Shown piece after piece: positions 40,500 through 58,909 of a stretch of DNA of 64,000 bases (positions are counted from its first letter, which is position 1; the number at the start of each line of letters is the position of its first letter). A model generated the notes under the pieces. The model saw nothing but the letters and a program-made list of their open reading frames with translations, did not search any database and had not been told where the DNA came from. The stretch comes from Planctomycetota bacterium (GTDB lineage Bacteria > Planctomycetota > Planctomycetia > Planctomycetales > Planctomycetaceae): positions 1-64,000 of the forward strand of contig QQVO01000016.1 in the NCBI GenBank assembly GCA_003388505.1, given 5' to 3'. The translations under genes were made by a program, and so were the position numbers.

Positions 40500-41627
40500 A
40501 TGGCGAAAGAGAAACTGACGACGGCTGAGATTCTCGCGCAAGCCCGCCAGCAGGGAGCGGCCGGCAGCGGAGGATCGTCCGGTGACGCGGGACAGCCTGC
40601 GGATCCGCCTGCCGCGGCCGACCCACAGGCGGAGAGTGCCGCAGCCGGAGAGGCGGCGTCTGATGCCCCCGCCGCACCGAAGGGGGCTTCTGATACCCCC
40701 GCCGCACCGAAAGGGGCGTCGGCGACCCCCAAGTCAACGGCGGACATTCTGGCTGCGGCCCGGGCCCAGGGCAGTGGTTCGTCCGAGAAGCCGGCGGCTG
40801 CGAAACCGCAAGCGGCGAAACCGGGCGGGGCTCCGAAGTCGACGGCCGACATTCTGGCCGCGGCCCGCGCGCAAGGGGCGAGTGGCGCGAAGGCGGCTCC
40901 GTCGGCGGGTGACGATGCTGAGAAACCAGCCAAGGAAAAGCCTGCTGCGAAACCGCGAGCGGCGGGGGACCGCCCGCCGCTTGAGGAAATGGTTCGGCGG
41001 ATGCATGAGGGCAAGCCGGCGGAAACCAAGCCGGCGCGTCCGAAACTCCCGTCCAAACCTCCGCTGCCTGCGCGGCGGCCGGAGTCGGCGGTTTCCCGCC
41101 GCGCCTTTCCCGCCGCGATGATCGCGTCAATTGCCGCGATCGTGATGACTCCCTTCGCGCTCGGCATGGGGCTGCTGGCTTTAATCGGGGGCCTGTGGTC
41201 GCTGCTGGGCGCCCGTTTCATGATGCCGAACATGGTTGTGGAGCTTCCGTCGCAGTTCAAAGTCGGCCCGCCGTCGGATCTTCCCCCCGGGGCCGTCTCC
41301 GAGAAGTTCAAAGCGAGCCGGGGTGTCTGGCTGGTGCGGTCCGACGCATACAACGGCGAGGACATCATCTACGCGCTGGCGTCGGTCTGTACGCATCTGG
41401 GGTGCACTCCCAACTGGCTGGAAGGCGAGCAGAAATTCAAGTGCCCGTGCCACGGGTCGGGCTTTTATATCAGCGGCATCAACTTCGAAGGTCCCGCTCC
41501 GCGGCCTTTGGAGCGAGTCGGTTTGCGGCTCGCCGAGGACGGCATGCTCGAAGTGGACAAGAGTGTGAAGTTTCAGGAAGAACTCGGGCAGTGGCAGGAT
41601 TCGAAATCGTTTGTCGCTTTGGGGTGA
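40500..41627 (+). CDS. Rieske 2Fe-2S protein with repetitive Ala/Pro-rich N-terminal arm
   Basis: 375 residues. A long disordered N-terminus (1-200) has three copies of a 13-residue helix-like motif: residues 7-19 (TTAEILAQARQQG), 79-91 and 114-126 (both STADILAAARAQG). A membrane helix spans about 203-236. The C-terminal Rieske domain has CTHLGC (Cys297, His299, Cys302) and CPCHGSG (Cys315, Cys317, His318), so the [2Fe-2S] His/Cys ligands and disulfide Cys are intact. It is the first gene of the locus and should be the high-potential iron-sulfur subunit of the quinol oxidising complex. The arm is cytoplasmic by topology and is a likely interaction or regulatory segment. Confidence 0.95.
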   Translation: MAKEKLTTAEILAQARQQGAAGSGGSSGDAGQPADPPAAADPQAESAAAGEAASDAPAAPKGASDTPAAPKGASATPKSTADILAAARAQGSGSSEKPAAAKPQAAKPGGAPKSTADILAAARAQGASGAKAAPSAGDDAEKPAKEKPAAKPRAAGDRPPLEEMVRRMHEGKPAETKPARPKLPSKPPLPARRPESAVSRRAFPAAMIASIAAIVMTPFALGMGLLALIGGLWSLLGARFMMPNMVVELPSQFKVGPPSDLPPGAVSEKFKASRGVWLVRSDAYNGEDIIYALASVCTHLGCTPNWLEGEQKFKCPCHGSGFYISGINFEGPAPRPLERVGLRLAEDGMLEVDKSVKFQEELGQWQDSKSFVALG

Positions 41628-41766: not shown

Positions 41767-42540
41767 ATGTCCGTCGTCGAGTACATCCGAAATACACAGG
41801 TCTGGAAAAGCGTCTTCCGCCATCCGGCGCCGTATGACCGGCGCAACCGTGCGGTGGTGATGCTGACCAACTTCTTCCTGCATCTGCACCCGGTTTCAGC
41901 GAAACAGGGGGGGATCGCGCTCTCCTACACCTGGTGCATGGGGGGGGTGACGTTCTTCCTGTTTCTGGTGGAAACGCTGACCGGCGTGCTGTTGATGTTT
42001 TACTACCGGCCGACGCTGGAGTGGGCGTTCACGGACATCCGCGCCTTGCGGGACGTGACCACGCTCGGCGTGATGCGCGAGATCCACCGGTGGGGCGCTC
42101 ACGCGATGGTGATCACCGTCTGGCTGCACATGTACCGGGTGTTTCTGACCGGCAGCTACAAGCCGCCCCGCGAATTCAACTGGGTGATCGGCGTGCTGCT
42201 GCTCGTGCTCACGCTGCTGCTGTCGTTTACAGGGTATCTGTTGCCGTGGGACCAGTTGGCGATCTGGGCGATCACGGTGGGGTCGAACATGGCGCGGGCG
42301 ACTCCGATTCTGGGGCATGAGGGGCCCGGCTTTCAATTGCTCAACATCGGGGGCTTCGAGCTGATTACCAAGGGGAGCGATGCGCGCTTTCTGCTGCTCG
42401 GCGCCCGCGAAGTGGGGGAAGAAACACTCAACCGTTTTTACATTCTGCACTGCGTGGCGATTCCCCTGGTGGTGGCCACGCTGATTGCGATTCACTTCTG
42501 GCGGGTCCGGAAAGACGGCGGCATCAGCCAGCCGTTGTGA
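41767..42540 (+). CDS. Cytochrome b6-like subunit (N-terminal cytochrome b)
   Basis: 257 residues with four core membrane helices. Four His ligands of hemes bL and bH sit in the expected pairs: HRWGAHAMVITVWLHMYRVFLTG in helix B, and the pair in helix D near FYILHCVAIPLVVATLIAIHFW. The Gly and Arg positions around the hemes (ETLTGVLLMFYYRP, FTGYLLPWDQLAIWA) fit the cytochrome b/b6 family. It takes electrons from quinol and passes one to the Rieske center and one along the b hemes. The C-terminal half is encoded separately, as in b6f-type and many bc complexes with split cytochrome b. Confidence 0.96.
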   Translation: MSVVEYIRNTQVWKSVFRHPAPYDRRNRAVVMLTNFFLHLHPVSAKQGGIALSYTWCMGGVTFFLFLVETLTGVLLMFYYRPTLEWAFTDIRALRDVTTLGVMREIHRWGAHAMVITVWLHMYRVFLTGSYKPPREFNWVIGVLLLVLTLLLSFTGYLLPWDQLAIWAITVGSNMARATPILGHEGPGFQLLNIGGFELITKGSDARFLLLGAREVGEETLNRFYILHCVAIPLVVATLIAIHFWRVRKDGGISQPL

Positions 42541-42653: not shown

Positions 42654-44027
42654 ATGCTTGAACCGCATCCTGATCTCACGACGCACGTGATTCACGGCCT
42701 GGGATGGCTGTACACGGTGATGTTTCTGATGAACGTCGGTTGGACGGTGCGGAGCTTCAACCGGGAGGGTCACTACGACAAGATCCTCGGATTTCAGGTG
42801 CCGCACTTGCCCAAGGCGTTCGTGTGGGCCATCTACACGGCGTTGCTGGGCCTGCTGGCGGCGACGCACCTCGCCGCTGACGGGGATCCGCAGGACTTCT
42901 TTTTCCGGATGCCGGTTGCCCTGAAAGACGCGATCAATGTTGTGATCGCGAATCCGATCAGCTTCTTCCTGCTGTCGATTCTGATGTTCGCCGCGATGAT
43001 CTGGCTGCGGAAGTGGCTGGTCCGGCCGACCGTCGGCTGGGTTCTGCTCAACTTCAGCATGCTGTTTCTCGGTCTGAGCATGACCGATTACGACTTCCGG
43101 CAGATCGTCGGCAAGCCGGACAACGTGCCGATCGTGGGCATGCTGTTCATCGTGGGGTACTTCACCTGGCTGTACTTCGCCAAAGCGGTGGAGAACGACC
43201 GCCGGATCGCGGCGGGAGAACCGAAGATCGAGGACGAGCAGGCGGACCAGGTGCTCGTGTGGCCCGATCTGGTGTATACGGAAATGATCTGCATGCTGCT
43301 GCTGACGGCCGTGCTGATCTTCTGGGGTGTGGGACTCGACGCGCCGCTGGAGGAACCGGCGAGCGCGGTCAAGACGCCCAACCCTTCCAAGGCGCCGTGG
43401 TACTTTCTCGGCCTGCAGGAGATGCTGGTCTACTACGACCCGTGGATGGCGGGCGTCGTGCTGCCGACCATCATTCTGGTCGGTCTGATGGCGATCCCGT
43501 ACATCGACTTCAACAAGCTGGGGAACGGCTACTACACGTTCGATCAGCGGAAGTTCTCGGTCTCGATGTTTCTGTTCGGGTTCCTGCCGCTGTGGGTGGC
43601 GATGATCATCCTGGGGACGTTCATTCGCGGCCCGAACTGGAACATGTTCGGTCCGTACGAATACTGGGACGTCCACAAACTGGAAGTGCTCAACAACATC
43701 AACCTGTCGGACTGGTTCTGGGTCGACCAGATGAACAAGCCGCTGCCCCGTCCCGGCGCGGAGGACGGGTTCGCCGCCACGGCGCTGATCATTCTCAAGC
43801 GGGAATGGCTGGGGCTGGCGCTTGTTGCGGGGTATTTGCTGGTTTTCCCACCATTGGGAGCGATCACCGTCTTCCGCAGGTTTTTCGTCAAAATGGGGTT
43901 CGTCCGGTATATGGTTCTGGCGAACCTGATTCTGTTCATGGCGGCACTGCCGCTGAAGATGGCGGTCCGCTGGCTGTTCAACCTGAAGTACATCGTCGCG
44001 ATTCCCGAGTGGTTTTTTAATATCTGA
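42654..44027 (+). CDS. Enlarged C-terminal cytochrome b subunit (subunit IV-like)
   Basis: 457 residues, almost three times the 160 residues of plant subunit IV. The family core is the segment from about 235 to 300: TPNPSKAPWYFLGLQEMLVYYDPWMAGVVLPTII, where the APWY is the PEWY-type quinol-site motif. The N-terminal 215 residues add about four membrane helices and end with a charged block, and the C-terminal 150 residues add three. Extra helices may dock the octaheme protein encoded next. The b hemes are held by the previous subunit. Confidence 0.93.
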   Translation: MLEPHPDLTTHVIHGLGWLYTVMFLMNVGWTVRSFNREGHYDKILGFQVPHLPKAFVWAIYTALLGLLAATHLAADGDPQDFFFRMPVALKDAINVVIANPISFFLLSILMFAAMIWLRKWLVRPTVGWVLLNFSMLFLGLSMTDYDFRQIVGKPDNVPIVGMLFIVGYFTWLYFAKAVENDRRIAAGEPKIEDEQADQVLVWPDLVYTEMICMLLLTAVLIFWGVGLDAPLEEPASAVKTPNPSKAPWYFLGLQEMLVYYDPWMAGVVLPTIILVGLMAIPYIDFNKLGNGYYTFDQRKFSVSMFLFGFLPLWVAMIILGTFIRGPNWNMFGPYEYWDVHKLEVLNNINLSDWFWVDQMNKPLPRPGAEDGFAATALIILKREWLGLALVAGYLLVFPPLGAITVFRRFFVKMGFVRYMVLANLILFMAALPLKMAVRWLFNLKYIVAIPEWFFNI

Positions 44028-44138: not shown

Positions 44139-47100
44139 ATGCCTGCCACCGAACAAATCTGGCGTCCGCTGAGCACGCTGCACAAGGTGTTCGCCGGGAG
44201 CGCAATTGCGCTGCTGGCGGCGACGATCGTGATGGTCGACAACGACGAAGACCGTGAATGGCGGCAGTATCAGATCGAAGCGGAGGAATTGCGCGACCGG
44301 AAACTGGCTGAGGAACTGGCCGATCTGAAGTCCGGCCCGTATCTCACCGAGCTGGAAGAATTGCGCATCACGCGGAACCAGGCCGAAACGGAATTCCTCA
44401 AGCAGGCGGACGAGTACGGAGTTCTGCAGAACCGGCTGGCGGAACTCAACGGTTTGGTGGAACTGCTGGAGCGCGAGGTGAAGTTTCAGAACGCCGAGGT
44501 CGGCGTCTCGCGCGCGAACAGGGATATCGACGTCCGCGACGCGGCCGGTGACGAGCAGCTTGTCCGGAGACAGGCGGACTTTGAATCGCAGAACCTGGTC
44601 GCCCGCAACAAGCAGCGGGAATTGGACGTCGCCAGGGCGGAACGCGACGCCGTCAAGAACCAGCTTGCCGCCCTCAAGGAGGATCTGGATCTCGCGGAAG
44701 CGGAGATCGCATCCCACCAGCAGGAGGTCGAGCGGATCGAAGAGCAGATCCGGCTGTTGCGACCCGACGCGCTGGAAGGATCCGGAGCGGGAGGATTCTT
44801 CGCCGCCCTCAAGCGAGACATGAAGCGGTGGCCGATCATCAACGGGTTCAACCCGGAGATCAAGATCGTCCAGGACTGGCTGCCCGACTTGAAGCAGCAG
44901 TTGGGCATGGCCCGCGTCGCCCGGTTCGACCGCTGCCGCAGTTGCCACGTCCACATCGACCGTTTCGCCAGCGGCAATGTTCCGGAGTTTCCGAAGGGGA
45001 CCGAAGACGAGGAGGGTTATCCGAACCCGTTCTGCTCCCATCCGCAGCCGGAACTGTTCCTGACCGCGACGAGTCCGCATCCGCTGACCGAATTCGGATG
45101 CACAAGTTGCCACGAGGGAGACGGGTCGGGTACGAGTTTTCAGACTGCCGAGCACACGCCCTCGAATCCCATTGAAGCGCACGAGTGGGAAGACGAATAC
45201 GGGTGGCATTCGAACCATTTCTGGGAATACCCGATGCACCCGTCGGTCTTCGCCCAGACGGGCTGCCTCAAATGCCACCCCAACGTGACGGAACTGGGCG
45301 TCAACGAGACGTTCGGCGCGACGGCGCCGAAGCTCTACGAAGGCTACGAACTGGTTAAAGAGTACGGCTGCTTCGGATGCCACGAGATCAACGGGTACGA
45401 CGGCACCGAGGTGATCGGCCCCGACTTGCGGCTCGAACCGCAGACTGCCGAAGAAGCCGCGAAAATCGCCGCGGATCCGAATCAGGTCGCCGGGGACATG
45501 CGGAAAGTCGGCCCGTCGCTGAGACACCTGGCTTCCAAGACAACGCCGGAATTCGTGCGGTACTGGACCGAAGAACCGAAACGGTTCCGCGAGCACACGC
45601 GGATGCCGCAGTTCTTCGACCTGACAAACCAGCAGGACCATCTGGCAGGGTTACTGCAGCCGGTTGAGCTGGCCGGCCTGACGGCGTACCTGATGGAACG
45701 CTCTGAGGAAATGCAGTTGATGCAGCCGCAGGAAGGCTACGAGCCCGATGCGGAGCGGGGCAAGATCGCGTTCTCCCGCCGCGGCTGTCTCGCGTGCCAT
45801 CAGCACGACGATCCGTACTTCGACGGAATCGACTCCGATTTCGGCCCGAACCTGACGAAAGTGCACGAGAAGATTCAGCCGGGGCCGGACGGGTTCAACT
45901 GGTTGTACACGTGGCTCAACAACCCGGAATTGCATCACCCGCGGACGAAGATGCCGAATCTGTTCCTCACCCCGGAGGGTGAAGGAGAGAACTACGTCGA
46001 TCCTGCGGCCGACATCGCTGCGTTCCTGCTGCAGGGCGGGCCGCGTGAGTTTCCCTCGATCAAGCTGCCGGGGGCGTACGTCGGAATCGAGGCGGACGAG
46101 AACTTCACCGAGGAAATGGCGATCTCCGCGGGGATCGAATCGGGAGACGGAGCGCGGGTCAAGCAGATTCTGGCAGGCAGTCCGGCCGAGCGCGCTGCAT
46201 GGGCGGATGGCGCCGTCGCTGACAACGCGCCGGCCCTCATGATCGGCGACATCATTGCAAGTTGGAACGGCAGTCCCGTGCGGAACGCTGAGCATCTTGA
46301 AGAGCTGGCCTCAGCCGCTGACGTCGGCGAACGCGTGACGCTGACTCGCGTGCGGGGCGGACGTGTTTCCGATGTGGTGCTCGTCGTCAGTACGCCCCTC
46401 GAGGATCTCGCCCGGCTGTATCTCAGCAAGCAGGCGACTGCCGAGGAAGTGCAAGCGACGCTGGAACTGGGCTATTTCGTTCGCCGGCGCGGCGTCGTGG
46501 CGCCGGATGGACAGGTCGAGTTCGTCTTCGAGGAAGCATCGGCCGATTCGATCAAGGGGGACGAGATCGAACTCGTTCACCGACCGGGTGACGGCGAAGA
46601 ACTCGACGCCGAAGAGCGGAATGAGCGACTGCTGCTCTACGTCGGTCGCAGAACGATTTCCCGCTACGGCTGCTACGGCTGCCACGAGATTCCCGGCTAC
46701 GAAGACGCCCGGCCGATCGGCACGCAACTCCAGGACTGGGGCCGCAAGGATACGTCAAAACTCGCCTTTGAACATGTGGCGGAATGGCTGCACCACCACG
46801 GCGAGCCCGACGGCGGCAGCACGCATGAGCGCATTTCCGAAATCGTGAATCCCGCCTATGAGGAGCAAGCAACGCATCAGGAGAAGACGGCCGCGTATTT
46901 CTACGAGAGCCTCTTGCATCACAAACGGCCCGGCTTCCTCTGGCAGAAGCTCAGGCAGCCGCGCAGTTACGACTATGAAAAGATCGGAACCAAGGGCTGG
47001 GACGAGCGGCTGCGGATGCCGCGATTCCCGTTCGATGAAGATCAGATCGAGTCGATTGCGACCTTCGTGCTGGGGCTTGTCGCCGATCCTCCGATTGAGC

Positions 47101-48902
47101 AATACGTTTACCAGCCGGAAGGCCCGGCCAAGGCGCGGATCGAGGGCGAGCGATTGCTTGCGAAGTACAACTGCGCCTCGTGTCACATGCTCGAAATGGA
47201 AGGGTTCCGGTTCGAGGCCGATCTCGACGAATTGATCGGTCTCACGAGAACGGAACTGGTCCACTGGATCGGCGAACGCGCCGAAGTGCTGGCAAGCGGC
47301 GATCTGCTGCAACCTGTGCTGCTGGGCCGGAGTCTGACGCCGGAGGAAGGGGACTACGCGCCGCCGCCTGGGATCCCGGAATCCCTCGCCGAGCGGTTGC
47401 AGGCTCAGGCCCAACTCGAAACCGACCGGGCCGGGGCGGAACTCGACGCGCCGAGTCTGGACGGTTTCCTGCGAGCCTACGTCGCCGAAGTCGACGCGGA
47501 ACTTTCCGAAGAGGCTGCGGAAGAAGCGGAAGCGTCCGGTCCGCCGCTGATTCTTCCCGCACTGGAAGAGTATTACCGGGAACTGTTCGGCGGCATCGCC
47601 GACCCGTCGGCGCGGAAGGCGGCGATCGAGCGCGAGCGCGAGATCGTCGACCATGTGCAAACCTTCCTGCTCAACAGCGAGGAATTGCTGGCCGGACGTT
47701 TGGTGGGCGTGAGCGATGTCACGCTCGAATTGACGCCCGTGCTCGGCGGGCTGGTCGATTCAGGCGCAAGCGATTTCACATCCAAGGTCGCAGCGCTGCA
47801 GGAGTGGCTCGATCGGCATCCGGAGGTGCTGCTGGCCGACCGGATTCCGGACCCCGATGTTCCGGAGAGCGTTCGCCGCGCACTGGAAGTCAAGCCGCCC
47901 GTCGCCCATCCTCACACGGTCGAGTCGAGCGCCGGCAGCGAATCGATCACGATTCACGGCCTGACCTTCGCCGCGCCGGATCCGGAGGAGGAAGATCCGG
48001 AGTTCCGTGAGTACTCCTTCGATCTGTGGGAGAATTACGAAGTCGGCGGCCGGTACAAACTGACGGGCGTGAACGGCCGTTACATCTTCAACGAAACGGC
48101 GGTCGAAGAGCAGATCGCGCCGCGCGGCGGAGACCTCGCGCAATGGCTCGTGCCTCGACTGGCCGACGAACTGATGCAGGGAGACCGCAGCAAGGCCTGG
48201 CAGGCCGCTCCGCCGCCGCTGTACAAGGAAGGCGTCAAAGTACAGACGCCGTGGCTGTACCGGTTCCTGAAGAATCCGGACCAGATCCGGTACACGACGG
48301 TGCTCCGCATGCCGCGGTTCAACATGAGCGACGACGAGGCGCAGGCGCTGGCGAATTACTTCGCCGCCGTCGACGGGGCGCCCTTCCCCTACCAGCGGAT
48401 TCCGGAGCAGGATGACAACTACCTCGCCGAGCGGAACGCAGAGTTTCACGAGGAGTTCCCCGACAGCGAGAACTCGTATCTCGAGGAAAGCTGGCTGACG
48501 CTTAACGGTCCGCTGTGCATCAAATGCCATGCGTTGGGGGGCCGGCCGTATCAGGCGAGCGACCCCAAGAAAGACATCCGGGGACCGAACCTGCAGCGGG
48601 TCGCTCAGCGGATGCAGCCCGACTGGCTGCACCTCTGGATCTACAAGCCGGCGGCGATTGTTCCCTATACGTCGATGCCGTCGAACTTCCCGAAGAACCA
48701 GTCGCAATTCCCCGACCTCTTCGGCGGGCAATCGAAAGAACAGACCGAGGCGGTGGTCGACGCACTGATCAACTACCATCTCATGATGGAAACGTTCGGC
48801 GAGACGGCCTACGTGCCGCCCACGCCGCCGGAAGGCGCGCCGGACGCTGAAGACCAGGATGATGCGGAAACGACCGAAACCTCTCCCGACGCCGGGGGCT
48901 GA
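44139..48902 (+). CDS. Octaheme cytochrome c with coiled coil and embedded PDZ domain
   Basis: 1587 residues. An N-terminal helix (18-34) can anchor it to the membrane. Residues 40-215 form a long charged coiled coil. Eight heme c motifs follow: CRSCH 266, CTSCH 321, CLKCH 376, CFGCH 411, CLACH 550, CYGCH 845, CASCH 1012, CIKCH 1460. A PDZ domain lies at about 646-752 (GIEADENFTEEM, ILAGSPAERAAW, MIGDIIASWNGSPVRN). Five RMP/KMP/SMP-type methionines (near 489, 605, 960, 1390, 1555) are likely distal heme ligands. The protein sits between the bc subunits and the CuA oxidase genes and is probably the wire between them. The PDZ domain is a striking addition. It has no close counterpart I know of, but a family name cannot be given without search. 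Confidence 0.9.
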   Translation: MPATEQIWRPLSTLHKVFAGSAIALLAATIVMVDNDEDREWRQYQIEAEELRDRKLAEELADLKSGPYLTELEELRITRNQAETEFLKQADEYGVLQNRLAELNGLVELLEREVKFQNAEVGVSRANRDIDVRDAAGDEQLVRRQADFESQNLVARNKQRELDVARAERDAVKNQLAALKEDLDLAEAEIASHQQEVERIEEQIRLLRPDALEGSGAGGFFAALKRDMKRWPIINGFNPEIKIVQDWLPDLKQQLGMARVARFDRCRSCHVHIDRFASGNVPEFPKGTEDEEGYPNPFCSHPQPELFLTATSPHPLTEFGCTSCHEGDGSGTSFQTAEHTPSNPIEAHEWEDEYGWHSNHFWEYPMHPSVFAQTGCLKCHPNVTELGVNETFGATAPKLYEGYELVKEYGCFGCHEINGYDGTEVIGPDLRLEPQTAEEAAKIAADPNQVAGDMRKVGPSLRHLASKTTPEFVRYWTEEPKRFREHTRMPQFFDLTNQQDHLAGLLQPVELAGLTAYLMERSEEMQLMQPQEGYEPDAERGKIAFSRRGCLACHQHDDPYFDGIDSDFGPNLTKVHEKIQPGPDGFNWLYTWLNNPELHHPRTKMPNLFLTPEGEGENYVDPAADIAAFLLQGGPREFPSIKLPGAYVGIEADENFTEEMAISAGIESGDGARVKQILAGSPAERAAWADGAVADNAPALMIGDIIASWNGSPVRNAEHLEELASAADVGERVTLTRVRGGRVSDVVLVVSTPLEDLARLYLSKQATAEEVQATLELGYFVRRRGVVAPDGQVEFVFEEASADSIKGDEIELVHRPGDGEELDAEERNERLLLYVGRRTISRYGCYGCHEIPGYEDARPIGTQLQDWGRKDTSKLAFEHVAEWLHHHGEPDGGSTHERISEIVNPAYEEQATHQEKTAAYFYESLLHHKRPGFLWQKLRQPRSYDYEKIGTKGWDERLRMPRFPFDEDQIESIATFVLGLVADPPIEQYVYQPEGPAKARIEGERLLAKYNCASCHMLEMEGFRFEADLDELIGLTRTELVHWIGERAEVLASGDLLQPVLLGRSLTPEEGDYAPPPGIPESLAERLQAQAQLETDRAGAELDAPSLDGFLRAYVAEVDAELSEEAAEEAEASGPPLILPALEEYYRELFGGIADPSARKAAIEREREIVDHVQTFLLNSEELLAGRLVGVSDVTLELTPVLGGLVDSGASDFTSKVAALQEWLDRHPEVLLADRIPDPDVPESVRRALEVKPPVAHPHTVESSAGSESITIHGLTFAAPDPEEEDPEFREYSFDLWENYEVGGRYKLTGVNGRYIFNETAVEEQIAPRGGDLAQWLVPRLADELMQGDRSKAWQAAPPPLYKEGVKVQTPWLYRFLKNPDQIRYTTVLRMPRFNMSDDEAQALANYFAAVDGAPFPYQRIPEQDDNYLAERNAEFHEEFPDSENSYLEESWLTLNGPLCIKCHALGGRPYQASDPKKDIRGPNLQRVAQRMQPDWLHLWIYKPAAIVPYTSMPSNFPKNQSQFPDLFGGQSKEQTEAVVDALINYHLMMETFGETAYVPPTPPEGAPDAEDQDDAETTETSPDAGG

Positions 48903-48903
48903 C

Positions 48904-49824
48904 ATGAGACGCTTGAATATGTTGCTGCGACTTTCGAGGACGACGACCGGTCTGATTGCCGGGGCTGCGGTCACACTCACGCTCGCAGTGGGGTGTACGC
49001 TCGAATTCGGCGGCGGCGCCAGCGTTGTTCCCGCTGTGGAGATTCTGCGCGCCGAAGGGACGGAAGAGGAAGCTGCGGGAGATGCCACGGTGGAAGTGGC
49101 CGGTTACGGCAATCTGAACGGCCGCGTGGTCCTGGAGGGCGCGATCCCGAGTCTGCCGCCCCTCGTTTCCGGATCGCTGAAGGATCCGAATGTCTGTCAG
49201 GTCGGCGTCATCCTCGAGAAAGATTATCGTCTCGTCGTCGATGAAGCGTCCGGCGGCGTGAAGAACGTGTTCGTCTACCTCGCGCGGAAGCCGCCCGGAG
49301 CGAAATCAGCCGAGGCCGGGGAAGACCAGTCGATGGTGTTCGACCAGAAGAACTGCGTCTTCCTGCCTCATGCGTCGGTCGTGCAGACGGGAGAGACCGT
49401 GCAACTGGTCAACAGCGACCCGATCGCGCACAACGTGAACCTGAAGGCGAAATCGAATGAGCCGTTCAACTCGGTGCTCAAGGTGAGCGATACGGTCGGC
49501 GTCCCGTATACCTACCAGCGTTCTGAACGGGAGCCGGTCCGGATCGTCTGCGACTTCCACTCCTGGATGCTGGCGTGGCAGCTTCCGCTCGATCATCCGT
49601 ACGGGGCCGTGACGAACGAAGACGGATCGTTTTCAATTCCCGACCTGCCGGCCGGCGAACACGAGTTTCAGGTCTGGCATGAAGGCCGCAAACTCCTGGA
49701 GCACACGGTGACGATCGCTCCCGATGAAACGGTGGAGGAGACAATCAGTGTTTCGGCCGCGAGCCTGGCTGCGATCCCGCCGAATCCACGGCCGCGGACC
49801 GTCGTGTTGTCGACTCGGCCCTAG
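48904..49824 (+). CDS. Cupredoxin-like lipoprotein (paralogue A)
   Basis: 306 residues with lipobox LAVGC (Cys31), so it is membrane-anchored outside the cytoplasm. A cupredoxin fold with type 1 copper ligands is visible: His176 (SDPIAHNVN), then Cys216, His219 and Met222 (VCDFHSWM). The end of the protein resembles a carboxypeptidase regulatory-like segment (GSFSIPDLPAGEHEFQVWHEG). It starts two bases after the octaheme gene stop. It would shuttle electrons between the octaheme protein and the oxidase. The next gene is its paralogue. The start at 48904 opens the lipoprotein signal. Confidence 0.88.
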   Translation: MRRLNMLLRLSRTTTGLIAGAAVTLTLAVGCTLEFGGGASVVPAVEILRAEGTEEEAAGDATVEVAGYGNLNGRVVLEGAIPSLPPLVSGSLKDPNVCQVGVILEKDYRLVVDEASGGVKNVFVYLARKPPGAKSAEAGEDQSMVFDQKNCVFLPHASVVQTGETVQLVNSDPIAHNVNLKAKSNEPFNSVLKVSDTVGVPYTYQRSEREPVRIVCDFHSWMLAWQLPLDHPYGAVTNEDGSFSIPDLPAGEHEFQVWHEGRKLLEHTVTIAPDETVEETISVSAASLAAIPPNPRPRTVVLSTRP

Positions 49825-49917: not shown

Positions 49918-49923
49918 TTGATG

Positions 49924-50844
49924 ATGACATTCGCAGGGAAATGCTTCCGCATCACGGCGGCCATCGCCTGTCTCGGCCTGCTGGTCGGTTGCGGCGGGGG
50001 AGACTCCGCCGATCAGGGACCACCCATCACGGTCGCGAATAGCGGCAATACTTCGACCCCAGCAGAGGACTCCGCCGCGGAAAACACCGCGTCGACAGGG
50101 GAGACCGGGGATTCAACCTCCTCGTCCTCGCCGAGTTCGAGCGGGTCGGCGCCGACCATTTCGGACACCGGCGGCGAGACGGTCACGTTCAAGGGGCGCG
50201 TGACGATCGACGGCACTCGTCCGGAGTTGGCGCCCCTGATTGCCCAGGGCGACCCGAAGGTCAAAGACGAAGTTTGCACGGAAAACGCAGTGCCCGACGA
50301 CTCCGTGCGCGGTGAAGGAAACGGCCTGGCGGATGTGTTCATCTATGTGCGGAAGCTCCCCGACGATGTCGACGTGCCGCCCGCACCGACCGACCCGGTT
50401 CCCCTCGATCAGCAGGGTTGCCGGTTCATTCCCCAGGGACTGTTTGTCCGCGTCGGACAAACGCTATTGCTGAAGAACTCCGATCCGGTTTCCCACAACG
50501 TCAGAACGCAGAGCTTCTCGAACCCCATCAATCAGATCGTGAAGCCGAACGACCAGGAAGGCATTCCCGTCACCTATGAGCGCGAAGAGCGGGTGCCGAT
50601 TCAAACCCGCTGCGACATCCACACCTGGATGAGCGCTTACCATCTGCCGGTGGACAATCCCTGGCACGCGGTGACCGCGATGGACGGCAGTTTCGAGATC
50701 GCCGATCTTCCGCCGGGGGAATGGGAGTTCACCGTGTGGCACGGCGCGAAGGGGTACATCGAGAAGTCGTTTGAATTCGAAGCGAGCGCGGGACAGACGG
50801 TGGAACAGAATTTTTCGGTCCCCGCCTCCGATCTGACGAAGTAG
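49924..50844 (+). CDS. Cupredoxin-like lipoprotein (paralogue B)
   Basis: 306 residues from the third of three starts (TTG, ATG, ATG). GGAGGAG at 49911-49917 favours 49924. Lipobox LVGCGGG (Cys23). A Ser/Thr/Gly-rich linker (24-85) precedes the cupredoxin part with type 1 copper ligands His191, Cys230, His233 and Met236 (SDPVSHNV, CDIHTWM). It is a diverged copy of the preceding gene. Two such carriers in a row may have different redox potentials or partners. Confidence 0.88.
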   Translation: MTFAGKCFRITAAIACLGLLVGCGGGDSADQGPPITVANSGNTSTPAEDSAAENTASTGETGDSTSSSSPSSSGSAPTISDTGGETVTFKGRVTIDGTRPELAPLIAQGDPKVKDEVCTENAVPDDSVRGEGNGLADVFIYVRKLPDDVDVPPAPTDPVPLDQQGCRFIPQGLFVRVGQTLLLKNSDPVSHNVRTQSFSNPINQIVKPNDQEGIPVTYEREERVPIQTRCDIHTWMSAYHLPVDNPWHAVTAMDGSFEIADLPPGEWEFTVWHGAKGYIEKSFEFEASAGQTVEQNFSVPASDLTK

Positions 50845-50869: not shown

Positions 50870-52261
50870 GTGTCCGGCAAGCCTCTGTTGATCATTGTTC
50901 CGCTCTGCCTCGCCGTTTTCATGACGGGATGCGGATCGTCCGGGATCGAATTCCGGGAGCGTGAAGAGACGGCCGAACTGATCCCGCCGGCGCAGGATTA
51001 CATGGAAGAGTTGCTGGCGGAACATTTCGGCTCTCCTACGGCGTCCGTCGCGTGGGAGAAGTTGCCGATCAACTACCACGCGGCGACGGCGACGGTCGAC
51101 GAGGCGGGGGAATCTGGCAGCGTCACTCTGGCCAACATCGGCCGGACTCTACCGATCAACGAAGGGCAGCAGATTTTGTGGTTCGTCGACGGGTCCGCTC
51201 ACAGCGGACAGGTGGCCGGCTTTGATGAGGACTTGAACGCGCTGACGGTCTCGCCGCCGGCCGGCGCCGACCAGAACTGGGCGCCGCCCGCGCCCGGCGC
51301 CCGGCTCACCATCGGGCCCGGCGAGACGCTGCAGCAGGGCCGCTTGCTCTACGCCGAGCATTGCCAGCATTGTCACGGCGTAACGGGCGACGGAAACGGG
51401 CCGACGGCCGAGTACCTTGAGCCGAGGCCCCGCGACTACCGGTTGGGAAAGTTCAAATTCACATCCACCAGCACGGTCCGCAAGGCCCAGCGGGACGACC
51501 TGGCCCGCATCATCGAGGAAGGCATCCCCGGAACGTACATGCCGTCCTTCAAGCTGCTGACGGAAGAGGAGTCTGCGGCGATTGTCGAATACGTGCGGTG
51601 GCTGGCGATGCGGGGAGAAACGGAACTGCGCCGCATCGAAATCCTGACCCTCGACTTTCGTGCGGCCGATGCGGAAACGCAGGAAGAACTCGATGAAATG
51701 ATCCAGGAGTTCGCCGAGGCGAAGGAGGACGATTTTCCGAACGATTTCGCCGACGAGACCGAACAGATCGCCGACTCCTGGCGGGTGGCCCAGGAAGAGT
51801 CCTCGGTTGTGCTCCCGAAAACGCCCCGGACGCCGAGTTCACCGGAATCCATCGCGAAAGGCCGGGAGATCTACCTCAGCGCGACCGCGAAGTGCGTGAC
51901 CTGCCACGGCGAAAGCGGGAAAGGAGACGGCCCGCAGACGATGCAGGTGGCCAAAGACGCCTCCGGTCAGAACTATCCCGTACCGGGCCTGCACGACGAC
52001 TGGGGGCGTTTGATCGAGCCGCGCAACCTGACGACCGGCATCTACCGAGGCGGACGCCGGCCGCTCGATCTTTACCGCCGGATTCACTCGGGGATCAAGG
52101 GGACGCCGATGACCGGGTTCGGCACATCGCTCTCCGACGAGCAGATCTGGGATCTCGTGAACTACGTGATGAGCATCCCGTTCGAAGACCGCGCGCCGGG
52201 AGAGGGCCCGTTTGTACCGTCCGAATCCGCCCCCGAAGCGACCGTTGCGAAATCGGAGTGA
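50870..52261 (+). CDS. Diheme cytochrome c lipoprotein
   Basis: 463 residues from GTG at 50870. The lipobox is FMTGC (Cys21). Two cytochrome c domains have CQHCH (165-169) and CVTCH (342-346), each with the nearby Met candidate (GTYMPSF and GTPMTGF). Residues 60-150 form an extra domain of unknown type before the first heme. Membrane-anchored diheme cytochromes of this kind often deliver electrons to CuA of a cytochrome c oxidase, and the subunit II gene follows directly. Confidence 0.92.
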   Translation: MSGKPLLIIVPLCLAVFMTGCGSSGIEFREREETAELIPPAQDYMEELLAEHFGSPTASVAWEKLPINYHAATATVDEAGESGSVTLANIGRTLPINEGQQILWFVDGSAHSGQVAGFDEDLNALTVSPPAGADQNWAPPAPGARLTIGPGETLQQGRLLYAEHCQHCHGVTGDGNGPTAEYLEPRPRDYRLGKFKFTSTSTVRKAQRDDLARIIEEGIPGTYMPSFKLLTEEESAAIVEYVRWLAMRGETELRRIEILTLDFRAADAETQEELDEMIQEFAEAKEDDFPNDFADETEQIADSWRVAQEESSVVLPKTPRTPSSPESIAKGREIYLSATAKCVTCHGESGKGDGPQTMQVAKDASGQNYPVPGLHDDWGRLIEPRNLTTGIYRGGRRPLDLYRRIHSGIKGTPMTGFGTSLSDEQIWDLVNYVMSIPFEDRAPGEGPFVPSESAPEATVAKSE

Positions 52262-52270
52262 TTGTTGTCC

Positions 52271-52298
52271 TGAGTCCATAGTCCCTAGTCCCTCGACC
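52271..52298 (+). repeat. Heptad array before the subunit II gene
   Basis: TGAGTCC, ATAGTCC, CTAGTCC, CTCGACC in 7-base steps, ending 12 bases before the GTG start at 52311. Reverse copies of this type lie at 11640-11667. Confidence 0.75.
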
Positions 52299-52310
52299 CC
52301 CACAAGTCCC

Positions 52311-53174
52311 GTGAAACGATTCTGGTGCGTCTTTTTCATGTTCTGGCCGCTGGCCGCCCTGTACCTGTGCTGGATTGCACCGGAGCGGGGCTGGTGGTTT
52401 CCCAGTGAGGCGATGTCCCCCCTGGGACAGAGGATCGACGATCTGTTCTACATGATCCTGATCGTGACGACGGTCGTGTTCATCGGGACGCAGATCGCCC
52501 TCGGCTACGTGCTGTGGACCGGCGCCAGGCGGACCGATCCGGGGAACGAGGAAACGACCTGGTTCAGCCACGGCAGCCACAACCTGGAAGTGATGTGGAC
52601 CATCGTGCCGGCCGGCATCCTGCTGTACATCGCGCTCTACCAGATCGACGTGTGGCGCGAATTCCGGATGCGGCCCTACTTTCCGCAGGAACAGATGACG
52701 GCGTCGCTGACGCGGATGGGAGTCGACACCGATGTCCCGGGTGACCGGGCGCTGGCCGAAGTCACGGCCCGACAGTTCGAGTGGCGGATCCGATATCCCG
52801 GCTTCGACGAAGACGGCAACCTGTTGCCGCTGATGACCGATCCACAGCCGACCGACCTGTACACGGTGAACGACCTGCACCTGCCGGCCGGCGTGCCGGT
52901 GATGATCAATCTCCTGTCGGGGGACGTGCAGCACTCGTTTTTCCTGCCGGAACTGCGGGTGAAACAGGACGCCGTGCCGGGCCTGGTGATTCCGGTCTGG
53001 TTCCAGGCGGAGAAAAGTCAGACGTACGACCTGCTTTGCGCGGAGTTGTGCGGCTGGGGCCACTACAAGATGAAAGCCCAGTTCGTCGCCGAGCCGGAGC
53101 AGGAGTGGCTCCAGTGGCTGCGCGAACTGCACGAGTTGCAGAACGAGGATGGAGTTGAGGAAACAGACGAGTAG
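52311..53174 (+). CDS. coxB: Cytochrome c oxidase subunit II
   Basis: 287 residues from GTG at 52311 (upstream sequence is heptad repeat; ATG at 52338 is an alternative). Two membrane helices, then the soluble cupredoxin with a complete CuA site: His in GDVQHSFFLPEL, and Cys243, Cys247, His251 and Met254 in LLCAELCGWGHYKM. No heme c domain is fused, unlike caa3-type subunit II, so the diheme lipoprotein or cupredoxins upstream must deliver electrons. The subunit I gene follows. Confidence 0.95.
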   Translation: MKRFWCVFFMFWPLAALYLCWIAPERGWWFPSEAMSPLGQRIDDLFYMILIVTTVVFIGTQIALGYVLWTGARRTDPGNEETTWFSHGSHNLEVMWTIVPAGILLYIALYQIDVWREFRMRPYFPQEQMTASLTRMGVDTDVPGDRALAEVTARQFEWRIRYPGFDEDGNLLPLMTDPQPTDLYTVNDLHLPAGVPVMINLLSGDVQHSFFLPELRVKQDAVPGLVIPVWFQAEKSQTYDLLCAELCGWGHYKMKAQFVAEPEQEWLQWLRELHELQNEDGVEETDE

Positions 53175-53281: not shown

Positions 53282-55099
<1,818 letters not shown>

Positions 55100-57109: not shown

Positions 57110-58357
<1,248 letters not shown>

Positions 58358-58465: not shown

Positions 58466-58909
58466 ATGTCCGATACGACAGCGGCAACACAGCATGCGGA
58501 GCACGCGGCGCATCCGCACGTGAACTACACAAAGATTTTTGTGGCTCTGTGTGTTTGCACGGCTCTCTCGTGGGTCGCCGACGAAGCGGGCGGCTGGGGA
58601 CTGATCGACAGCAAACGGATGATCGCCGTCATCGTCCTGGCGATCGCGGTGGCCAAGGCGCAGTACGTGATGCGGTACTTCATGCACCTCAAGTTCGAGG
58701 GGAAATGGAAGTACGTGCTCCTGCTCCCGACGACGATCCTGGCGTGCGGCATCCCGCTGGCGCTGGCGCCGGACATCGGCCTGCACTATTACCGGCCGAC
58801 CACGCCGCAGACCCGGGTCGAGATCGCCCCGCCGACAGAGCTTTCTCCCACAGCAGCGCCGCACGAGTCGGCCAAAGGGTCGGCCCCCGAACACGGCGGT
58901 GATCACTGA
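58466..58909 (+). CDS. ctaF: Cytochrome c oxidase subunit IV
   Basis: 147 residues with three membrane helices and the family's characteristic segment VLAIAVAKAQYVMRYFMHLKFEGKWKYVLLLPTTIL. The C-terminal tail after residue 110 is a longer Pro/Ala-rich extension than usual. The stop and the next start overlap (TGATG), so it is coupled to the ABC ATPase gene. It is an accessory subunit of heme-copper oxidases. Confidence 0.93.
   Translation: MSDTTAATQHAEHAAHPHVNYTKIFVALCVCTALSWVADEAGGWGLIDSKRMIAVIVLAIAVAKAQYVMRYFMHLKFEGKWKYVLLLPTTILACGIPLALAPDIGLHYYRPTTPQTRVEIAPPTELSPTAAPHESAKGSAPEHGGDH

Follow-up and report, generated by a model that had tools for sequence, protein, structure and literature searches.

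The octaheme c-type cytochrome encoded in the window, by which we mean the whole stretch of 64,000 nucleotides analysed, was proposed in a preliminary description to carry a PDZ domain inside its heme array, an arrangement for which no respiratory precedent was known to that description. This raises the question of whether the domain is genuine, how it came to lie among the hemes and what it may do there.

Gene cluster and heme chain of the octaheme protein

The octaheme gene belongs to a cluster (Table 1) that begins with a b6f-like gene set, in which the genes for the Rieske protein, a four-helix cytochrome b and a subunit-IV-like protein adjoin, and that continues downstream with a heme-copper oxidase accompanied by its assembly genes. 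The order Rieske, cytochrome b N-terminal subunit, cytochrome b C-terminal subunit, octaheme, cupredoxin, diheme cytochrome c, COX2 and COX1 was found at most of 61 Planctomycetota loci, a number of them truncated by the end of a contig, and from this conserved order we infer that the octaheme serves as the large cytochrome c subunit in a planctomycete Rieske/cytochrome b complex, replacing cytochrome c1 or f. All named matches among the genome contigs are from Planctomycetota, and the label "Kuenenia" on some of the matching contigs may be an artefact of binning or naming. No octaheme homologue was detected in the plasmid collection, nor did a first scan of the genome contigs with the single window protein as query give a match. 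The window has two tandem cupredoxin/CarboxypepD_reg genes, while a single such gene seems to be the rule in related clusters, and its oxidase subunit III matches Pfam COX3 in two stretches, leaving an apparent long insert.

Table 1. Positions in the window of the octaheme gene, its parts and its neighbours. Residue numbers refer to the octaheme protein; numbers after CXXCH are the first residues of the motifs.
Feature	Position	Strand	Basis
Rieske iron-sulfur protein	40500..41627	+	PF00355; NCBIfam cytochrome b6f Rieske below cutoff
Cytochrome b N-terminal (b6-like) subunit	41767..42540	+	PF00033
Cytochrome b C-terminal/subunit-IV-like, 457 aa; tail IPEWFFNI-COOH	42654..44027	+	Pfam, NCBIfam, tail comparison, hydropathy
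Octaheme c-type cytochrome, 1587 aa	44139..48902	+	ORF and CXXCH count
N-terminal membrane helix, residues 11-37	44169..44249	+	AlphaFold2 helix and hydropathy
Predicted coiled coil, residues 40-207; helix break 134-137 (probable hairpin)	44256..44759	+	AlphaFold2 helices, conservation
Heme 1, CXXCH 266, invariant	44934..44948	+	motif and family alignment
Heme 2, CXXCH 321	45099..45113	+	motif and family alignment
Heme 3, CXXCH 376	45264..45278	+	motif and family alignment
Heme 4, CXXCH 411; invariant M489-P490, likely sixth ligand	45369..45383	+	motif and family alignment
Heme 5, CXXCH 550; invariant M605-P606; PF00034 match 538-631	45786..45800	+	Pfam and family alignment
PDZ domain, residues 646-752, DegP/DegQ PDZ1 type	46074..46394	+	Pfam, NCBIfam, profile search, AlphaFold2
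Heme 6, CXXCH 845; invariant M960-P961	46671..46685	+	motif and family alignment
Heme 7, CXXCH 1012; invariant M1391-P1392	47172..47186	+	motif and family alignment
Heme 8, CXXCH 1460; invariant M1513	48516..48530	+	motif and family alignment
Cupredoxin-like protein with CarboxypepD_reg domain, copy 1	48859..49824	+	Pfam; H..C..H..M pattern from sequence
Cupredoxin-like protein with CarboxypepD_reg domain, copy 2	49918..50844	+	Pfam; sequence pattern
Diheme cytochrome c	50870..52261	+	PF00034/PF13442
Oxidase subunit II	52212..53174	+	
Oxidase subunit I (COX1)	53282..55099	+	
Oxidase subunit III	57110..58357	+	
Oxidase subunit IV	58466..58909	+	

Cooperation of a bc complex with a cytochrome c oxidase is familiar from the bacterial bcc-aa3 supercomplexes, whose bc complex has a multi-heme c subunit, the diheme QcrC; the octaheme differs from QcrC in having eight hemes instead of two and a PDZ domain that QcrC lacks. 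Anammox bacteria possess b6f-like Rieske/cytochrome b complexes in which hexa- or octaheme cytochromes replace cytochrome f (PMC12954380). Two of these, encoded by Kuste4569-4574 and Kustd1480-1485 of Kuenenia stuttgartiensis, which belongs to the same phylum, share with the window a b6-like cytochrome b with a separate subunit-IV-like protein, and a hexa- or octaheme cytochrome c in the place of cytochrome f, the octahemes being compared here by their description. Unlike the window, however, they include NAD(P) oxidoreductase subunits, one has an added HAO-like octaheme and no PDZ domain is mentioned (PMC12954380), whereas the window has a heme-copper oxidase cluster downstream.

The eight hemes and the N-terminal membrane helix claimed for the protein were both recovered. 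Apart from a few truncated homologues, exactly eight CXXCH motifs were counted throughout, and almost every complete homologue in the phylum retains them. The region of hemes 1-3 is cytochrome c7-like in the Pfam scan, while each of hemes 4-8 is followed by an invariant Met in the window-family alignment, and Pro comes next in every or almost every row; hemes 4-8 thus appear to be class-I-like cytochrome modules with Met as ligand. The Met-Pro pairs argue against an HAO-like octaheme, and no HAO-type family was among the Pfam matches (to E=1) or the NCBIfam matches (to 0.001), libraries that may not hold such a model. Between hemes 7 and 8 there is an insert of about 200 residues (1041-1237, approximately positions 47260-47850) that is found in few homologues and has no Pfam match.

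The 175-residue coiled coil of the preliminary description was upheld as to its helices, since an AlphaFold2 model of residues 1-1060 (56 sequences, mean pLDDT 80.8) predicts long helices at 40-63, 66-88, 90-133 and 138-207. Conservation peaks at 0.61 over residues 121-140, against 0.30-0.45 over most of the flanking coil, and this peak and the helix break together suggest an antiparallel hairpin with a conserved tip and not a single straight rod.

A DegP/DegQ-type PDZ domain between hemes 5 and 6

Residues 646-752 are a genuine PDZ domain of the DegP/DegQ type, as the preliminary description had proposed for this segment, and Pfam, NCBIfam, two AlphaFold2 models and a profile search against PDB sequences concur on it. 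In the full-length Pfam scan PDZ_2 (1.7e-4) and PDZ (0.0042) both remained under the gathering score; the isolated segment passed both curated cutoffs, with 28.5 bits for PDZ_2 (cutoff 27) and 26.5 bits for PDZ (cutoff 23.2). The NCBIfam model degP_htrA_DO matched exactly 646-752 (E=2.1e-9), by its PDZ part alone (model positions 236-329 of 434), and NCBIfam MamE matched the stretch weakly. A profile built from 22 homologous segments matched DegP/DegQ-like PDB chains down to 1.4e-23.

Consistent with these matches, the domain is confidently predicted in the model of residues 1-1060, where means of pLDDT over blocks of 10 residues between 640 and 760 are mostly 89-96, with one block at 83. Foldseek and VIA-align searches with this model returned PDZ domains of HtrA proteins, residues 645-763 aligning with PDZ1 of DegQ/DegP at Z ~14 and an rmsd of ~2 Å over ~105 residues, and the second model, of residues 142-1341 of a PDZ-carrying homologue (L058), gave a PDZ domain again (Z ~17). 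The insert therefore resembles PDZ1 of HtrA (DegP/DegQ) in both fold and sequence profile, but HtrA proteins have a protease domain, and the Pfam scan of the window protein found no trypsin-like protease domain.

The domain lies past the invariant Met of heme 5 and ahead of the heme 6 motif. The statement that it sits inside the heme array is correct in that it is flanked by hemes 5 and 6, but what it occupies is an inter-module linker that close homologues bridge without it: the spacing between the two hemes is ~265-306 residues in family members with the domain and ~160-185 in those without, a few proteins deviating through other or further inserts, and in PDZ-less proteins the sequence DIAAFLLxxGPxxF runs straight into the helix LDELVxLYL. 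Two homologues (L071 and L108) have an extra insert of ~80-140 residues between the PDZ domain and heme 6.

Fusions of PDZ domains and c-type hemes are already known from the magnetosome proteins MamP and MamE, the MamP dimer being stabilized by PDZ contacts (PMC3971196). As in the window protein, PDZ domain and hemes share one chain in these proteins, which differ from it in having tandem mono-heme magnetochrome domains, in having a protease present or absent, and in belonging to magnetosomes (PMC3971196). The magnetochrome MCR model, although present in the Pfam library, gave no hit to the window protein up to E=1; it matched another protein at 0.081. The claim that no PDZ domain is known within a respiratory multiheme chain stands as far as we searched: in the open-licence literature we found no description of a PDZ domain within such a protein or recurring at several linkers. 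An octaheme in the place of cytochrome f is of a kind already known, whereas a PDZ domain in a respiratory multiheme subunit is apparently new within the same search.

Recurrence of the PDZ domain at three linkers

The profile of the heme 5-6 PDZ domain also located a PDZ domain in the heme 6-7 linker of 17 further family members, where it falls within the heme-6 module after HEYLHHHG, and weakly matched the region of hemes 1-2 in a neighbouring family. Both were confirmed independently, with Pfam scores of 39.6 and 48.4 bits at hemes 6-7 and of 38.0, 30.8, 38.3, 30.5 and 32.8 bits at hemes 1-2 (cutoff 27), and with matches of the insert profiles to PDB sequences of DegQ/DegP (2.6e-17, hemes 6-7) and DegP (4.4e-12, hemes 1-2), among other PDZ proteins. 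The class-wide survey found the octaheme in 218 of 398 genomes. When complete eight-heme homologues were counted, one per genome, 95 of the 227 carried a PDZ domain, at hemes 1-2 in 57 (16 families), at hemes 5-6, as in the window, in 21 and at hemes 6-7 in 17, and none carried two. The remaining 132 have no PDZ domain at the three sites and keep all eight hemes, which argues that the domain is dispensable for the heme chain. Homologues lacking the segment, which had been regarded in advance as evidence against the proposal, do exist (68 of 106 proteins of the same family), and others have the domain in a different linker, a finding that strengthens the case instead of weakening it.

A weak PDZ-like remnant, ADPPPGSLAALAGFRAGDV, was noticed within the coiled coil of one homologue (L265, genome G564), before heme 1, and may represent a fourth site; it scored 0.00025 with a local profile and 16 bits in Pfam, against a cutoff of 27. 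In genus g3 of family f1, many complete genomes gave no octaheme match at the thresholds used, which suggests that the complex was lost or replaced there.

In a core-cytochrome tree built without the insert regions, the heme 6-7 type forms one clade and needs one change, the heme 1-2 type three and the heme 5-6 type seven. The PDZ copies themselves cluster by site, on a short and weakly resolved tree with SH-aLRT supports of 46, 91 and 95, and need four label changes in all, the minimum being three. The simplest reading of the two trees is apparently one capture per site, at least three in all, with the heme 5-6 copy being lost repeatedly afterwards; the lowest support, 46, is that of the heme 5-6 group, and a single origin of this copy is accordingly weak. 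Transfer, or relocation within the gene, may also account for the three-site pattern.

Possible functions of the inserted domain

We find it reasonably probable that the octaheme is a membrane-anchored arm in which the PDZ domain, inserted at three linkers, acts as a periplasmic docking or tail-binding module. Electrons would pass, in the presumed direction, from the Rieske centre through the eight hemes to the diheme cytochrome c, the cupredoxin and the oxidase encoded downstream. The domain, set in a linker of the heme chain, would lie outside this path, as eight-heme homologues bridge the same linker without it. A docking module could be of use at any point where it stands out from the arm, so that recurrence at three linkers points to such a function, and lateral docking is in our view the most likely role of the domain. 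Were this true, peptide-recognition domains would join the parts list of respiratory complexes. The homologues offer a rare natural series, in which one electron-transfer subunit with the same hemes either lacks the docking domain or has it at one of three alternative sites, and which makes it testable whether assembly of planctomycete supercomplexes needs modular docking; the planctomycete octaheme is thereby marked out as a structural target.

As a counterpoint, the heme linkers take other inserts too, unrecognised ones occurring at hemes 1-2, 4-5, 5-6, 6-7 and 7-8, and may simply be permissive. PDZ domains are common in the window genome (25 matches) and were lost repeatedly from the octaheme, as would be expected if permissive linkers gathered common periplasmic domains or spacers without selected function. 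We consider such neutral insertion unlikely, given that one domain type recurs at three sites, that the octaheme is the only one of the 25 PDZ matches fused to hemes, and that the heme 1-2 PDZ domain is kept in every examined protein of families f2, f4 and f105-f118. Moreover, the alignments of all three sites share an invariant glycine in the Phi-G-Phi carboxylate loop, ahead of the peptide-binding strand; this is consistent with a working peptide groove but does not prove it.

One candidate ligand is the tail in which the cytochrome b C-terminal subunit ends; by clasping it, the domain could latch the arm formed by the octaheme to the bc core. This tail has the conserved hydrophobic form PE-x-x-x-N-Phi-COOH at nearly all loci examined (of the IPEWFFNI type, or of the IPEFSLNF type in the heme 1-2 PDZ group) and, from hydropathy and homology to subunit IV, is probably periplasmic; HtrA-type PDZ domains do bind hydrophobic tails, as in DegS with YQF, according to the title of a structure. 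The tails of both cytochrome b subunits are, however, the same whether or not the octaheme has a PDZ domain, that of the C-terminal subunit being equally conserved, which speaks against the earlier suggestion that the domain holds the C-terminal tail of a neighbour. In the heme 1-2 group this tail ends in F/L instead of I/V, a difference that phylogeny confounds. No C-terminal tail motif tracking the PDZ domain was found in the Rieske protein, the cytochrome b N- and C-terminal subunits, the cupredoxins, the diheme cytochrome c or the oxidase subunits, nor a stand-alone PDZ gene replacing the insert in the 61 clusters. We regard the cytochrome b latch as quite unlikely, and take an equally doubtful view of the broader proposal that a peptide-tail latch, for instance one binding PE-x-x-x-N-Phi-COOH, joins arm, bc core and oxidase and arose independently in three or more places of the protein.

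The domain could instead serve dimerisation or packing, as in MamP, joining two bc protomers or the bc complex to the oxidase, considering that the MamP dimer is held mainly via PDZ-PDZ contacts (PMC3971196). Moreover, as is generally known, bc complexes are dimers as a rule. Three insertion sites would nevertheless put the interface in different places, and such a role seems rather improbable to us. Recruitment of a factor for assembly or quality control (protease, chaperone or heme lyase) while so large a cytochrome matures is, in our judgement, highly improbable. Although the closest relatives of the domain are those of DegP/DegQ, the other support was a faint match to parvulin between hemes 6 and 7 in one lineage (genus g7, L079), which was obtained at fragment level, lay below the cutoff and vanished in full-length scans, that of a congener included, and the parvulin assignment was rejected. 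Like L081 and L126, L079 carries another kind of insert, about 95 residues long, in the heme 6-7 linker, the PDZ site of its relatives.
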